Origin: Acetobacteraceae bacterium
GTDB taxonomy: Bacteria; Pseudomonadota; Alphaproteobacteria; Acetobacterales; Acetobacteraceae
DNA length: 64,000 nucleotides
Assembly (NCBI GenBank): GCA_947474705.1
Contig: CANJJS010000009.1
Location: 1 to 64,000, forward strand
Direction: 5' to 3'
Below the pieces are notes generated by a model. It had not been told where the DNA came from. It searched no databases and saw only the letters and a program-made list of their open reading frames with translations. This document shows, piece after piece, positions 32,720 to 41,138 of the stretch. Position numbers and translations under genes: made by a program. Position 1 is the first letter of the stretch. The number at the start of each line of letters is the position of its first letter.

Positions 32720-34261
32720 ATGAGCCTTTGGAGAAGCATTGTCTTAACAGCGTTCCTGTCCTTCGCCCTTTCGCCCGGCGGCGCGGGGGACGCGATGGCG
32801 CAGACCAAACCGGCGGGCGAAATGCGATGGGCGCTGTATGTCACCATCGCGCCGGCCTGGCTGGATCCCGGCGAGGTCATACCGGGAACGATCACCCCGT
32901 TTTGGATCCTTTACGCACTGCATGACGCGATGGTGAAGCCGATGCCCGGCAACCCCATGGCGCCAAGCCTCGCGGAATCCTGGACGGAAAGCGCGGATCA
33001 CCTGACTTATGAGTTCACCCTGCGAAAAGGCCTGAAATTTCACAACGGCGACGCCTTCACCGCCGAAGACGTGGCGTACAGCTTCCAGCGCTCCAAGGCG
33101 AGCCTGATGCACGAACAGGTAAAGCAGGTGGAAGTCGTCGATCCCACCCGCATCCGCTTTCACCTGCACCGGCCCTGGCCCGACTTCATGACCACTTATG
33201 GCACGCTCGCCACCGCCACGAGCTGGATCGTCCCGAAGGCCTACACGGAAAAGGCCGGACCGGCCGGCTTCAAGCGCCATCCGATCGGCCTCGGACCCTA
33301 CAGGTTCGTGGAAAACAATCCCGGCGTCGAACTGGTCCTGGAAGCGTTCGAGGGCTATTGGCGCAAAGTCCCATCGGTCAAACGCATGGTGTTGAAAAGC
33401 ATCCCGGAGGCGTCCACCCGCATGGCGATGCTGAGCCGGGGCGAGGTGGACGTCGCCTATCTGCTCGATGCCTCGCTGGCGAAAGGGCTGAAAAACGATC
33501 CGAAGCTGAAACTCGCCTTCTCCGGCGGGATCGCGACCTATATCGTCGATTTCTTCGACATGTGGGACCCGAAATCCCCTTGGTCCGACCCACGCGTGCG
33601 CAAAGCGGTCAGCCTCGCGATCAACCGCCAGGAAATCAGCGAGGCCGAAACACTCGGTGCTTCCCCGCCCGCCGGCAATTTCGTGCCAAAAAACTTCCTT
33701 TTCGCCTTGCCGATGGAACCGGATCCCTACGACCCCGCCAAAGCGCGACAATTGCTCGCCGAAGCGGGCTACCCCAACGGCTTCGACGGCGGCGACATCA
33801 TCCCGACACCGCCCTACACCAGCGCGGCCGAGGCCGTGGCCAATTACCTCGCCGCCGTCGGCATCAAACTCCGCGTCCGCACCATGGAGCGCGCCGCGTT
33901 CACAACCGCTCTCGGCGCGAAAAAACTGAAAGGTCTCTGCGTCTGCTCCTATTCGGTTTATGGCAACGCCTCGACCCGCCTGTCCCAGATCGTGCCCAGC
34001 AGCGGTCCCTTCGCGTACGGCGGCTTTCCCGATGTCGACGATATGTTCAGACTTCAGAACGAGGAAACCGACATCGTCAAACGCACCGCGCAACTGCACA
34101 ACCTGCAGCGCGTGCTGCACGAACGGACCCGCTTCGTGCCGATTTTCGATTACATCTGGCCCAGTGGGATCGGGCCTCGCGTGGACAATCCCCAGTTAAT
34201 GTCCATCGATCCCTACCCTTGGGCCGCGCCGATGGAAGACGTGACGCTGAAGGCCCCGTAA
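32720..34261 (+). CDS. orphan peptide-type ABC transporter substrate-binding protein
   Basis: This 513-residue SBP_bac_5 protein has a signal peptide ending AMAQ before TKPAGEM. The domain includes SLAESWTESADHLTYEFTLRKGLKFHNG, the FEGYWRKVPSV region and YDPAKARQLLAEAGYPNGFDG. No permease or ATPase gene is adjacent, so it must deliver ligand to a remote importer. It precedes the selenoprotein gene by 239 bases in the same direction, so the ligand could be related to that enzyme's substrate, which is inference. It is clearly distinct from the four tandem paralogs. Confidence 0.92.
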   Translation: MSLWRSIVLTAFLSFALSPGGAGDAMAQTKPAGEMRWALYVTIAPAWLDPGEVIPGTITPFWILYALHDAMVKPMPGNPMAPSLAESWTESADHLTYEFTLRKGLKFHNGDAFTAEDVAYSFQRSKASLMHEQVKQVEVVDPTRIRFHLHRPWPDFMTTYGTLATATSWIVPKAYTEKAGPAGFKRHPIGLGPYRFVENNPGVELVLEAFEGYWRKVPSVKRMVLKSIPEASTRMAMLSRGEVDVAYLLDASLAKGLKNDPKLKLAFSGGIATYIVDFFDMWDPKSPWSDPRVRKAVSLAINRQEISEAETLGASPPAGNFVPKNFLFALPMEPDPYDPAKARQLLAEAGYPNGFDGGDIIPTPPYTSAAEAVANYLAAVGIKLRVRTMERAAFTTALGAKKLKGLCVCSYSVYGNASTRLSQIVPSSGPFAYGGFPDVDDMFRLQNEETDIVKRTAQLHNLQRVLHERTRFVPIFDYIWPSGIGPRVDNPQLMSIDPYPWAAPMEDVTLKAP

Positions 34262-34500
34262 CGGAAACGCCAGGGGACGAAAGTCAAAGTTCTGAAAGGA
34301 TGAGATTGCCGGCCGCGCGAGACCCTCGGACCAAAGACAAAAAGTCCAGGGTTTCCGCCCCAAACGCCGCGAGGCGCTCTGCCCCGTCGAATCCCACCCG
34401 AACGGAGCCCCATGCCCCCGGCGTGACGCCCGGCGCTGAATCGGATAACGTCGCCTCATCGTCCCCCGTGGGACGCTCACATCGTTCGGAGGCACGCGTC

Positions 34501-35436
34501 ATGGCGGACCGCATGGACGATCTGGAATTCGCCGTCGAACACGACGTGCCGATTCCGTATCGTCATCGCATCAGCACGTATTACCAGACCCTCGGTTACG
34601 GGAAGCCTTACCGTTGGGCGCAATACTCTCATGTTCCGTTCACGCCGCTGAAAAAGCCGCTGTCGGAGAGCCAGGTGACCCTGATCACCACGGCCGCCCC
34701 ATACCAGCCGGACAAAGGCGACCAGGGACCGGGCGCGCCCTATAACGCCGCCGCGAAGTTTTACCGGGTCTACACGGACAGCATCGAGGGCGAGCCCGAC
34801 GTCCGCATCTCCCACATCGGCATCGACCGCAAACACACCGCGGCGACCGATATCAACACCTGGTTTCCGCTGAAACAGCTCAAGCGGCTGGCGGCGGAAG
34901 GCCGGATCGGGGCGTTGGCGTCCGAATTCATCGGTGCGCCGACCAACCGCAGCCAAAAGGTCACCATCGAGCAGGACGCGGTGGAAATCCTCGCGACCCT
35001 GCGCGCCCAAGGGTCCGACGTCGCGATTCTCGCGGCCAATTGACCCGTGTGTCATCAGACCGTGAGTCTGATCGCACGGCATCTTGAGGCCAACGGAATC
35101 CCGACCGTCATCATGGGTTGCGCGAAGGACCTGGTGGAATTCTGCGGCGCGCCGCGGTTCCTGTTCTCGGATTTCCCACTGGGAAACCCAGGCGGGCGGC
35201 CGCACGACGTCGACTCGCAGGCATTCACCATGGAACTGGCGTTGAAAGTGCTGGAGTCCGCGATCGGCCCCCGCACGACCGTGCAAAACCCGTTGCCGTG
35301 GACCGGCGACCCCGGCTGGAAGCTGGATTTCTCCAACATCGAACAACTCTCGGCCGAGGAAATCGCCCGGCGCCGCGCCGAGTTCGATGCCAACAAGGAA
35401 ATCGCCAAACAGCAACGCGTCAAAACCGCCGAGTGA
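34501..35436 (+). CDS. selenoprotein, glycine/betaine/proline reductase component B family (in-frame UGA)
   Basis: This is a 311-residue protein read through an in-frame TGA at 35041-35043 as selenocysteine, residue 181. Both halves lie in the same frame and together match the GrdB/PrdB family: the upstream half has DVRISHIGIDRKHTAATDIN, and downstream of U181 come PVC (Cys184, a UxxC redox pair), then IPTVIMGC and FSDFPLGNPGG. In these enzymes the Sec sits at this position and takes part in reductive cleavage. A perfect stem-loop lies 17 bases after the UGA. GGAGG precedes the ATG at 34501. A class III CoA transferase follows. A nonsense-mutated pseudogene is the alternative, but no decay is seen on either side. 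The partner GrdA/E or PrdA genes are absent, so the function is probably not Stickland reduction. Confidence 0.85.
35044..35080 (+). promoter_or_regulatory. bacterial SECIS element
   Basis: Directly after the UGA, CCGTG (35045-35049) pairs with CACGG (35075-35079), and ATCAGAC (35054-35060) pairs perfectly with GTCTGAT (35066-35072). The apical loop is CGTGA (35061-35065), with a G in its second position. The distance of 17 bases from UGA to loop, the short loop and the G fit the known bacterial SECIS rule for SelB binding. Confidence 0.82.
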
Positions 35437-35494
35437 TACACCAGACCGGGACGAACCACCGTCCCGGTCCCATTTTCGAAGATTGCGAGGAAAC

Positions 35495-36697
35495 GTGAGC
35501 GGAAAACTTCCCTTGGCCGGTATACGCGTGCTCGATATCGGCACGCTCATCGCCGGTCCTTTCGGCGCCACCATGCTGGGCGATTTCGGCGCCGAAATCA
35601 TCAAGGTCGAACAACCCGGCATCGGCGACGCCCTGCGCGGCACGCCGAAGGACGGCAAGGCCTCGCGGTCCGGCAACTGGCTGGTGGAGGGACGCAACAA
35701 AAAATCCGTCACGCTCAACCTTCGCGTGAAACAAGGTCAGGACATTCTGCGGGAACTGGTGCGCACCGCCGACGTCGTGATCGAAAACTTCACCCCCGGC
35801 ACACTCGAAAAATGGAACCTTGGCTGGGACGACCTGCGCAAGGTGAATCCGCGCCTGATCATGGTGCGCGTCTCCGGCTACGGCCAGGTCGGCCCCTATT
35901 CGAAACGGTCCGGCTACGACCGCATCGCGCTCGGGTTCTCCGGATACATGTATCCCACCGGCTTCCCCGACCGCTTCCCGGTCCGGCCCGCCTTCCCCAC
36001 CGCCGACTACAACACCGGCACCTTCGCGGCGCTGTCCGCCATGTTCGCCCTCTACGAACGCGACGCCAAGGGCGGCGAGGGCCAAATGATCGACCTCGCC
36101 CTCTACGAAGCCCCTTTCCGCATCACCGCGGATATGATGACCAAACACGCCCAGACCGGCGAAATTCGCGAGCGCATCGGCAACCGCAACCCCACCTTCT
36201 CCCCGGCCGGCACCTTTCAGACCCGGGACGGACGCTACGTCCAGATCGCGGCGGGCGGCGATAACGTCTGGCAACGCCTCGCCGAGGCCATCGACATGGC
36301 CCCCCTCGCCACCGACCCGCGCTACGCCAAAAGCCGCGAACGCATCGCCCGCGCCGACGAACTGGAAGCGCTCCTCGCCGGCTGGATTTCGGAACACGAC
36401 TTCGCGGACATCGAAGCCCGCCTGGAAAAAGCCAACGTCCCCTTCGGCGGCATCTACACCGCCGCCGACATCGCCACCGACCCGCATTTCGCCGCCCGCG
36501 AAAACATCGCCGTGATCCCAGACGAGGAAGAAGGCCCGGTCACCATGCCCAACGTCGTGCCCAAACTCCGCGGCACGCCAGGACGCATCGCCCATGCCGG
36601 CCCTCCCCTTGGCAAGCACAACCAGGAAATCTACGTCGCGCTGCTGGGCAAGACCGAGGCGGAACTGGCCGCGCTCAAAGACGCCGGCGTCATCTGA
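35495..36697 (+). CDS. class III (CaiB/BaiF) CoA transferase
   Basis: This 400-residue enzyme moves CoA between organic acids. The N-terminal PLAGIRVLDIGTLIAGPFGA and LGDFGAEIIKVE, the conserved TPGTLEKWNLGWDDL, and the C-terminal PRLRGTPGRIAHAGPPLGKH region are all typical. The conserved Asp of the family's active site lies in MIDLALYEAP. The start is GTG at 35495 with GAGG ahead. It lies 58 bases downstream of the selenoprotein gene, so the two may share a message and a substrate chain. Confidence 0.92.
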   Translation: MSGKLPLAGIRVLDIGTLIAGPFGATMLGDFGAEIIKVEQPGIGDALRGTPKDGKASRSGNWLVEGRNKKSVTLNLRVKQGQDILRELVRTADVVIENFTPGTLEKWNLGWDDLRKVNPRLIMVRVSGYGQVGPYSKRSGYDRIALGFSGYMYPTGFPDRFPVRPAFPTADYNTGTFAALSAMFALYERDAKGGEGQMIDLALYEAPFRITADMMTKHAQTGEIRERIGNRNPTFSPAGTFQTRDGRYVQIAAGGDNVWQRLAEAIDMAPLATDPRYAKSRERIARADELEALLAGWISEHDFADIEARLEKANVPFGGIYTAADIATDPHFAARENIAVIPDEEEGPVTMPNVVPKLRGTPGRIAHAGPPLGKHNQEIYVALLGKTEAELAALKDAGVI

Positions 36698-39261: not shown

Positions 39262-39332
39262 CGTTGTACCGCCAGTTGCCATGGCCCGGTCTGGGCGATA
39301 GCTCAAAAAACCCCGCCACCAAGGAGCATCCG

Positions 39333-41138
39333 ATGTCCGCGCCCGCCCCCATCCCCTATTCCGACGCGAAACTCCGCGGCATCCTGTCCACGGTACGCAC
39401 CATCGCGATGGTCGGGGCGAGTTCCAACTGGAACCGGCCCAGCTACTTCGTGATGAAATACCTGCAAGGCAAAGGCTACCGGGTGATCCCGGTCAATCCC
39501 GGCACCGCGGGCAAGGAACAACTCGGCGAGAAAATCTACGCCTCGCTCCGCGACATCCCCGAGAAAATCGACATGGTCGACGTCTTCCGCGCCTCCGATC
39601 AGGTCGGCCCGGTCGTCGACGACGCGATCGCGATCGGCGCCAAAATCGTCTGGATGCAACTGGGCGTGCGCAACGACGACGCCGCCGCGAAAGCCGAAGC
39701 CGCCGGTCTGGACGTCGTCATGAACCGCTGCCCCAAAATCGAATTCGGCCGTCTGGGCGGCGAATTGTCCTGGAGCGGCGTCAATTCCGGAATCATCCGC
39801 AACCGCGCACCCGAACAGCCCATGGATCGCCGCGCCAAACCCCGCCCGCTTCCCCCAGCCAACATCGAATACGGCTTCGAAACACGCGCGATCCACGCCG
39901 GCGCGTCCCCCGACCCCACCACCGGCGCCCGCTCCACCCCCATCTATCAAACGACCGCGTACGTGTTCGACGACGTCGACCACGCCGCGTCGTTGTTCAA
40001 CTTGCACAATTTCGGCTATATCTACAGCCGCCTGACCAACCCCACCGTCTCCGTGCTGGAAGAACGCATCGCCAGCCTGGAAGGCGGCCGCGCCGCCGTG
40101 GCGGCGGCATCCGGCCACGCCGCGCAATTCCTGGTCTTCGCGACGATGCTGGAACCCGGCGACGAGTTCCTCGCCTCCCGCGCGCTCTACGGCGGCTCCC
40201 TGACCCAGTTCGGCCTCAGCTTCAAGAAGCTCGGCTGGCATTGCCATTTCGTCGATCCGCTCGACCCCGAGAATTTCCGCCGCGCGCTGACCCCGAAATG
40301 CAAGGCGATCTTCATCGAAAGCCTCGCCAACCCCGGCGGCGTGGTCGTGGATATCGAGGCGATTTCGAAGATCGCGCATTCCGTGGGCATCCCGCTGATC
40401 GTCGATAATACCCTCGCGACGCCATTCCTGTGCCGCCCCTTCGAGTGGGGCGCCGACCTCGTCACCCACTCGACCACGAAATTCCTTGGCGGCCACGGCA
40501 ATTCCATGGGCGGCATGGTCGTCGAATCCGGAAAATTCGATTGGGCCGCCAGCGGCAAATTCCCCTCGATGACCGACCCGGAACCCGCCTATCACGGCCT
40601 CCGCTTCTACGAAAACTTCGGCGATTTCGCCTTCACGACGAAAGCCCGCGCCGTGGCGCTGCGCGATTACGGCCCCACCATGGCGCCCATGAACGCGTTT
40701 CTGACGATCACCGGCACGGAAACCCTACATATCCGCATGGAACGCCATTGCGAGAACGCCATGAAAGTGGCGCGCTTCCTCGCGGGGCACGAAAAAGTCT
40801 CCTGGGTTTCCCACGCGGGCCTCGACTCCAGCCCCTATTACGCCCTCGCGAAAAAATATTTGCCGAAAGGCGCCGGCTCCGTCTTCACCTTCGGCGTCAA
40901 AGGCGGCTTCGAGGCCGGCGTGAAAATGGTCGAGGGAGTCAATCTGTTCTCCCACCTCGCCAATATCGGCGACACCCGCAGCCTGATCCTGCACCCGGCC
41001 TCGACCACCCACCGGCAGTTAACCGAGGAACAGCGCCTGGCCGCCGGCGCGGGCCCCGACGTGATCCGGCTGTCGATCGGCCTGGAAACGGCGGAGGACC
41101 TGATCGCCGATCTGGAACAGGCGCTGGCCGCCGGTTAA
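39333..41138 (+). CDS. fusion of CoA-binding domain and O-acetylhomoserine sulfhydrylase (MetY)
   Basis: This 601-residue protein joins two normally separate proteins. Residues 1-~145 are a CoA_binding_2 Rossmann domain (VRTIAMVGASSNWNRPSYFVM). After a Pro/Arg-rich linker, residues ~170-601 are a full-length PLP enzyme of the Cys/Met metabolism family: YGFETRAIHAGASPDP, YIYSRLTNPTVSVLE, Lys383 in THSTTKFLGGHG as the Schiff-base residue, and the C-terminal RSLILHPASTTHRQL. O-acetylhomoserine plus sulfide to homocysteine is the likely reaction. AAGGAG precedes the ATG at 39333 and no stop or ribosome site lies in the linker. In related genomes the two genes are neighbours; here they are one frame. 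A short sequencing error removing a stop is the alternative. Confidence 0.9.
   Translation: MSAPAPIPYSDAKLRGILSTVRTIAMVGASSNWNRPSYFVMKYLQGKGYRVIPVNPGTAGKEQLGEKIYASLRDIPEKIDMVDVFRASDQVGPVVDDAIAIGAKIVWMQLGVRNDDAAAKAEAAGLDVVMNRCPKIEFGRLGGELSWSGVNSGIIRNRAPEQPMDRRAKPRPLPPANIEYGFETRAIHAGASPDPTTGARSTPIYQTTAYVFDDVDHAASLFNLHNFGYIYSRLTNPTVSVLEERIASLEGGRAAVAAASGHAAQFLVFATMLEPGDEFLASRALYGGSLTQFGLSFKKLGWHCHFVDPLDPENFRRALTPKCKAIFIESLANPGGVVVDIEAISKIAHSVGIPLIVDNTLATPFLCRPFEWGADLVTHSTTKFLGGHGNSMGGMVVESGKFDWAASGKFPSMTDPEPAYHGLRFYENFGDFAFTTKARAVALRDYGPTMAPMNAFLTITGTETLHIRMERHCENAMKVARFLAGHEKVSWVSHAGLDSSPYYALAKKYLPKGAGSVFTFGVKGGFEAGVKMVEGVNLFSHLANIGDTRSLILHPASTTHRQLTEEQRLAAGAGPDVIRLSIGLETAEDLIADLEQALAAG

Follow-up and report, generated by a model that had tools for sequence, protein, structure and literature searches.

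The selenocysteine (Sec) enzymes PrdB and GrdB are Stickland enzymes of anaerobes and require a pyruvoyl partner. In proline and glycine reductases, the pyruvoyl group on PrdA or GrdE holds the amino substrate, and the Sec of the B-subunit attacks its alpha carbon. The reactions and subunits of both reductases are described in PMC13188914, and for fluoroacetate, PMC10838667 proposes that a GrdB-related operon breaks the C-F bond by selenocysteine attack. Related UxxC sequences filed as 'proline reductase PrdB' rank with the most abundant selenoproteins of marine samples: 42 were reported from the Sargasso Sea in 2005 (PMC1088965), and 235 Sec and 110 Cys forms from the GOS data in 2008 (PMC2398784). 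The family considered here is thus already known, both from these published counts and from RefSeq, which names relatives by the GrdB family. As described in the two papers, the marine proteins share with ours the UxxC motif and PF07355, and names such as MED665, ERR599097 and BS-150m among our related loci hint at marine sampling; judged by these descriptions, the marine 'PrdB' may be the same subfamily. A literature search, with subscription journals mostly outside its coverage, found no account that separates a partnerless subfamily or notes a link to a CoA-transferase.

The window analysed here, a stretch of 64,000 nucleotides from an Acetobacteraceae genome (contig CANJJS010000009.1, positions 1 to 64,000), carries on its forward strand a PrdB/GrdB-like gene of 311 residues (34501..35436) if an in-frame TGA is taken as Sec. 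The gene starts with ATG at 34501, has a GGAGG resembling a ribosome-binding site 8 nt upstream of it (34488..34492, found by inspection), contains the in-frame TGA at 35041-35043 (residue 181) and ends with another TGA at 35434-35436. The residues around the codon read AILAAN-U-PVCHQT, in which U181-P-V-C184-H-Q forms a UxxC motif with Cys184 (35050..35052) as the presumed resolving thiol. Standard-code gene calling cuts the gene in two, and the first-pass annotation, which had joined the two same-frame pieces parted by the TGA at 35041 alone, gave exact coordinates. Frame structure by itself is weak evidence for such a joined gene: counting the two of this gene, the window has 31 TGA codons that are flanked on both sides by at least 125 open codons. 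The real evidence comes from homology.

Homologues were collected with six search patterns, and the analysis used 80 related loci, the best 80 of 256 matches; because of this selection, and because one of the patterns holds the Cys form of the motif, the ratio of Sec to Cys forms is not a census. In this set, codon 181 could be read in 83 tblastn-aligned places from 82 loci and is TGA in 50, TGC in 28 and TGT in 5, with no other codon. Setting aside a paralogue from the window's own genome (L002, 29% identical) and an additional gene at locus L025 (33%) leaves 81 orthologues, the window's included, 48 with Sec and 33 with Cys at residue 181. The additional L025 gene (623-1372, forward strand), which lies some 6.6 kb upstream of the main one, also has an in-frame TGA and reads UPLDHQT, that is, Sec without the second Cys. 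Among the best 80 of 256 matches, the alignment runs through the TGA at 60-90% identity, and in Cys-form relatives a single unbroken frame covers both pieces. In six close relatives, codon position 3 varies and positions 1 and 2 are conserved on both sides of the TGA; between the window and L003, identity at the three positions is 92/96/52% 5' of the codon and 91/90/66% 3' of it. Judged by this pattern, coding constraint acts on the stretch 3' of the TGA as well. U/C181, C184, H105, D109, R110, N149, R150 and D224 are invariant over 38 aligned rows, as would fit an enzyme.

Directly 3' of the UGA lies a SECIS-like stem-loop (35045..35079, forward strand; MFE -18.9 kcal/mol, z -2.89 against shuffles), whose upper stem (35054-35060 with 35066-35072) encloses the apical loop CGUGA (35061-35065). 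It has the features by which bacterial SECIS elements are recognized in PMC1088965, namely a position directly 3' of the UGA and a guanosine within a small apical loop. Within the best 80 of 256 matches, all 35 distinct Sec-form orthologues carry the CGUGA loop after the TGA, as against 1 of 33 Cys forms. The five loop-proximal pairs are formed in all 35 distinct Sec forms (one of them in 34), the second pair from the loop is kept in 3 of 33 Cys forms, and the two outer pairs are formed less consistently (27/35 and 33/35 Sec forms); mean folding energy is -14.6 for the 50 TGA against -10.9 for the 33 Cys sequences, the two sets overlapping widely. The genus has a second selenoprotein, whose nine distinct sequences show CGUGA (seven) or CGUGU (two) as the loop; three of its stem pairs are swapped for different standard pairs, and the outermost one no longer forms. 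Conservation in the Sec forms, together with compensated pairs in a selenoprotein of about 30% identity, is strong evidence that the predicted hairpin is a SECIS element. An Rfam scan of the window at gathering scores gave no match.

The host genome (5.48 Mb in 205 contigs, rated 99.27% complete and 3.2% contaminated) encodes a full Sec machinery: selA (553 bits) with an adjoining tRNA-Sec (anticodon TCA) on contig C4, selD, and two SelB above the curated cut-off. All four of the genes selA, selB, selC and selD, which the first-pass annotation had proposed to look for, are present, among them selB and selC, whose absence it had named as a possible objection. The two SelB genes lie at C47 28780-30651 and C67 4478-6322, with tRNA-Sec and selA on a third contig; the second SelB is either a duplicate or part of a foreign contig in the bin. 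The same genome holds a second PrdB-like selenoprotein (locus L129; contig C163, 5118-6320, reverse strand; 401 residues, motif UPLC), which is about 30% identical to that of the window and has the in-frame TGA in 18 of the 33 genomes of the genus, its own included. That formate dehydrogenase accounts for the Sec machinery was considered and is not supported by TIGR01553, the one FdhA model tried: it gave no match above cut-off in the host genome, and the 14 stretches that it matched have no internal stop. A 2006 survey stated that fdhA encodes the sole selenoprotein of the Alphaproteobacteria then studied (PMC1794560). Taken as it appears in that paper, the statement does not fit the present genome, with its two PrdB-like genes that contain an in-frame TGA and no TIGR01553 match above cut-off.

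Among curated families, the protein is closest to NCBIfam PrdB (TIGR04483), with 95.4 bits against an equivalog cut-off of 300; an annotated Terrisporobacter PrdB scores 423.7 bits on this model. TIGR01918 (Glycine/betaine/sarcosine/D-proline reductase selenoprotein B) gives 42 bits, below its cut-off of 65.45 (81.3 for the annotated PrdB), whereas Pfam GRDB (PF07355) matches above its gathering cut-off (24.3 versus 22 bits) over model positions 208-345 of 347. In a 7-row alignment with two annotated PrdB, to each of which it is 29% identical, Sec181 lines up with the residue that TGA encodes in them, the second Cys is shared, and U181, C184, H105, D109, D117 and others are invariant. The next residue is His in both, in the context CHQ here and CHR in PrdB. 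At 311 residues versus about 240, however, our protein is some 70 residues longer than annotated PrdB, owing to both ends and to insertions. From GrdB, GrdF and GrdH, with which it shares U-x-x-C, it differs in lacking the N-terminal 200 or so model positions and in reading UxxCxxT in place of the UxxCxxC given for GrdBFH in PMC6778437. FarB/FarE of fluoroacetate-degrading Synergistota, as described in PMC10838667, likewise involves a GrdB-related selenoprotein with proposed attack at an alpha C-X bond, but has the GR protein B partner FarE, an anaerobic host and a radical SAM neighbour. Two RefSeq proteins named 'glycine/sarcosine/betaine reductase selenoprotein B family protein', from plasmids of a Roseomonas and a Haematobacter, belong to the same subfamily (59% and 55% identity), but have Cys at the Sec place and no adjoining CoA-transferase.

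Given the Pfam GRDB match and the alignment of the Sec with that of PrdB, a nucleophile role of the PrdB/GrdB type may well apply. A sequence search for solved relatives found none up to E 1, and another returned two chance-level rows. The AlphaFold2 model of the protein has a mean pLDDT of 86.2, and a fold search against the PDB gave no match under E 0.001 (best E 0.025; query TM-score at most 0.29 among the best 50 rows). With no solved fold significantly like the model, no active-site geometry backs the chemistry discussed below.

The pyruvoyl partner was sought throughout the host genome. Neither the PF09338 (PrdA/GrdE-type) profile nor an annotated PrdA as query matched anywhere in it, and control genomes were likewise without a match; the silence of PF09338 is meaningful because the model gives 79 bits on that annotated PrdA. 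GrdA (PF04723) also had no match in the host genome, though the control genomes were silent as well. Around the two RefSeq relatives, prdA is not among the annotated features, whereas prdA and prdC adjoin the Terrisporobacter PrdB. Two haem-copper oxidases score above cut-off in the host genome, and the bacterium seems to respire oxygen. The first-pass annotation had proposed a GrdB/PrdB relative in an apparently aerobic host, with no partner reductase genes nearby; the Pfam match and the aligned Sec agree with the kinship, the oxidases with the aerobic host, and the absence of partners now extends to the whole genome for the PF09338 and PrdA queries. The new chemistry that it thought likely is a conjecture. 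We incline, by a modest measure and jointly with the whole explanation given below, to the view that the subfamily would work without a pyruvoyl PrdA/GrdE-type subunit.

A further difference from PrdB lies in the gene neighbourhood. Downstream of the selenoprotein gene, on the same strand, is a class III (CaiB/BaiF) CoA-transferase of 400 residues from a likely GTG start (35495..36697; PF02515, 404.9 bits). Its nearest relatives of solved structure include formyl-CoA and succinate-hydroxymethylglutarate CoA-transferases. In the loci drawn from the best 80 of 256 matches, a CoA-transferase match lies directly downstream in 61 of 81 (42 of 48 Sec and 19 of 33 Cys forms); a stricter position rule, which omits L027, L029 and L030 for a first start far upstream, retains 58 (41 Sec, 17 Cys). 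The remaining 20 loci, without such a match, comprise 14 Cys and 6 Sec forms, and one of them, L019, has only 278 nt of downstream sequence. The adjoining enzymes fall into two lineages that share about 33% identity, one found beside the window gene and in L003, L004, L005, L006, L007, L009 and L011, the other in the rest. L008 has a selenoprotein that groups with that of the window, but a CoA-transferase of the other lineage, so that the association has either outlived a change of partner gene or arisen twice. The coupling of the selenoprotein to a class III CoA-transferase is shown in this sense, as conserved adjacency.

Of 50 CoA-transferase ORFs measured for the second lineage, taken from their first start and unrefined, 44 begin within 42 nt of the selenoprotein gene or overlap it. 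In the window, a GC-rich 10-bp hairpin followed by a weak T run (35444..35469, forward strand), a possible terminator or attenuator, separates the two genes and makes their co-transcription doubtful; a consensus terminator scan did not list this hairpin. Strong GC-rich intergenic hairpins of unlike sequence are present in L003, L004, L005, L007, L009 and L011, six of the seven nearest relatives. In three loci without a CoA-transferase, inspection by eye revealed downstream genes resembling CoA ligases (L016, L070) or enoyl-CoA hydratases (L037). In a Pfam tally of 113 neighbour ORFs, hand-picked from 34 loci out of 201 listed for 36 loci, CoA_transf_3 (15) and ECH_1 (enoyl-CoA hydratase, 5) were commonest among the best 25 of 140 families, which also included SBP_bac_5 (4), PNPOx_N and AhpC-TSA (3 each) and AMP-binding (2). 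Upstream of the selenoprotein gene, the window has a family 5 solute-binding protein of a peptide-type ABC transporter (32720..34261, forward strand; PF00496, 265.5 bits), whose link to the selenoprotein is uncertain. As a fixed partner it was rejected, being matched in 2 of the 59 loci with 6 kb of upstream sequence, the window's own included; other SBP_5-like ORFs, many from Reyranella, cluster upstream in 29 loci from the best 80 of 256 matches. Elsewhere in the window (39324-41138, forward strand), about 180 residues that by eye resemble a CoA-binding domain are fused in frame to an O-acetylhomoserine aminocarboxypropyltransferase (717.6 bits from residue 182).

How far do alternative readings account for these observations? 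TGA is a stop in table 11, and with 31 like frame pairs in the window the gene might be broken, or its product 180 residues long. This is highly improbable in view of the exceptionless TGA/Cys exchange, the constraint 3' of the codon, the hairpin and the full Sec machinery; the first-pass annotation had itself named relatives with neither Sec nor Cys at residue 181, or with the TGA as a stop in all of them, as counter-evidence, and instead all 83 places from the best 80 of 256 matches hold one or the other. Its full-length Sec protein is borne out by the exchange, the hairpin and the machinery, and 34501-35436 is almost certainly a real selenoprotein gene with UGA 35041 decoded as Sec. It might then encode a true subunit of D-proline or glycine/betaine reductase, with a partner that has diverged or was left unassembled: PrdB is the nearest curated family, the Sec residues align, and marine relatives are filed under proline reductase in PMC1088965 and PMC2398784. 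Yet the score lies far below the PrdB cut-off that the annotated protein passes, the protein is considerably longer, a 99%-complete genome yields no PF09338 or PrdA match (GrdA being unmatched with a silent control), and the two RefSeq relatives have no annotated prdA nearby, unlike the Terrisporobacter gene. We regard this reading as improbable, and the protein as very probably a relative of PrdB and GrdB that is neither a proline nor a glycine reductase.

Outside reductive cleavage, the protein could be a general thiol-disulfide or peroxide-reducing UxxC redox protein, with the CoA-transferase as a bystander. The motif itself, the PNPOx_N and AhpC-TSA neighbours (3 of 113 ORFs each, among the best 25 of 140 families) and the hairpin between the two genes in the window speak for such a role; its homology is to PrdB/GrdB, however, no thioredoxin-like family was matched, and the CoA-transferase adjacency recurs with two distinct lineages. 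This makes the general redox protein an unlikely reading. That the selenoprotein works with CoA-linked acyl metabolism we consider an evenly balanced proposition.

The explanation that we prefer, as a whole slightly more likely than not, is a pyruvoyl-independent branch of the PrdB/GrdB superfamily, coupled to a CoA-transferase, in which Sec attacks an acyl substrate. SelB and tRNA-Sec would decode UGA 35041, aided by the hairpin directly after it. Absence of a pyruvoyl partner and the adjoining CoA-thioester enzymes together point to an acid, or its CoA ester, that bears a leaving group close to the carbonyl as a candidate substrate, which the neighbouring CoA-transferase may activate as a CoA thioester; as no pyruvoyl partner was found, this activation may replace the pyruvoyl Schiff base. 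The selenolate of Sec181, or the Cys thiolate in many relatives, would then attack an electrophilic carbon of the small acyl substrate and expel the N-, O- or halogen-bound leaving group, and Cys184 would resolve the seleno-ether to a selenenyl-sulfide, which might be reduced by thioredoxin or some comparable thiol. Reductive C-X cleavage by the selenoprotein is, on its own, a tentative assignment. Still more doubtful is the wider proposal that a pyruvoyl-independent branch in aerobes carries out Sec-dependent C-N, C-O or C-halogen cleavage on acyl-CoA delivered by the CoA-transferase, and that most marine 'PrdB' belong to it with a misassigned function.

Sec and Cys forms have been exchanged repeatedly. 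The 81-row tree, built from the best 80 of 256 matches, requires at least six Sec/Cys changes, at least three of them forced by well-supported branches. Close matches occur in 31 of the 33 genomes of the window's genus, five with a TGA copy and 27 with a stop-free copy (one has both), residue 181 having been read in part of the 27. The Sec form of the window clusters with those of further Acetobacteraceae and of alphaproteobacterial bins and is separate from the Cys forms of Acetobacteraceae (L030, L032, L033, L036, L047 and L076). This placement suggests that it arose by transfer or old duplication and not by a fresh Cys-to-Sec change. Over 50 of the 80 loci (49 genomes), 16 of 17 Sec-form loci versus 21 of 33 Cys-form loci come from a genome with selA (Fisher p 0.04, kinship ignored), the single Sec-form locus without it being L037, from a metagenome bin; kinship leaves 3 independent pairs on supported branches, and so no conclusion is drawn from this correlation.

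If the preferred explanation is true, a partnerless branch with a haem-copper-oxidase host and at least six Sec/Cys exchanges would lend itself to studying when selenium is of advantage, and the usual CoA-transferase neighbour would point to candidate substrates. The 'proline reductase' label of a common marine selenoprotein would also be brought into question.
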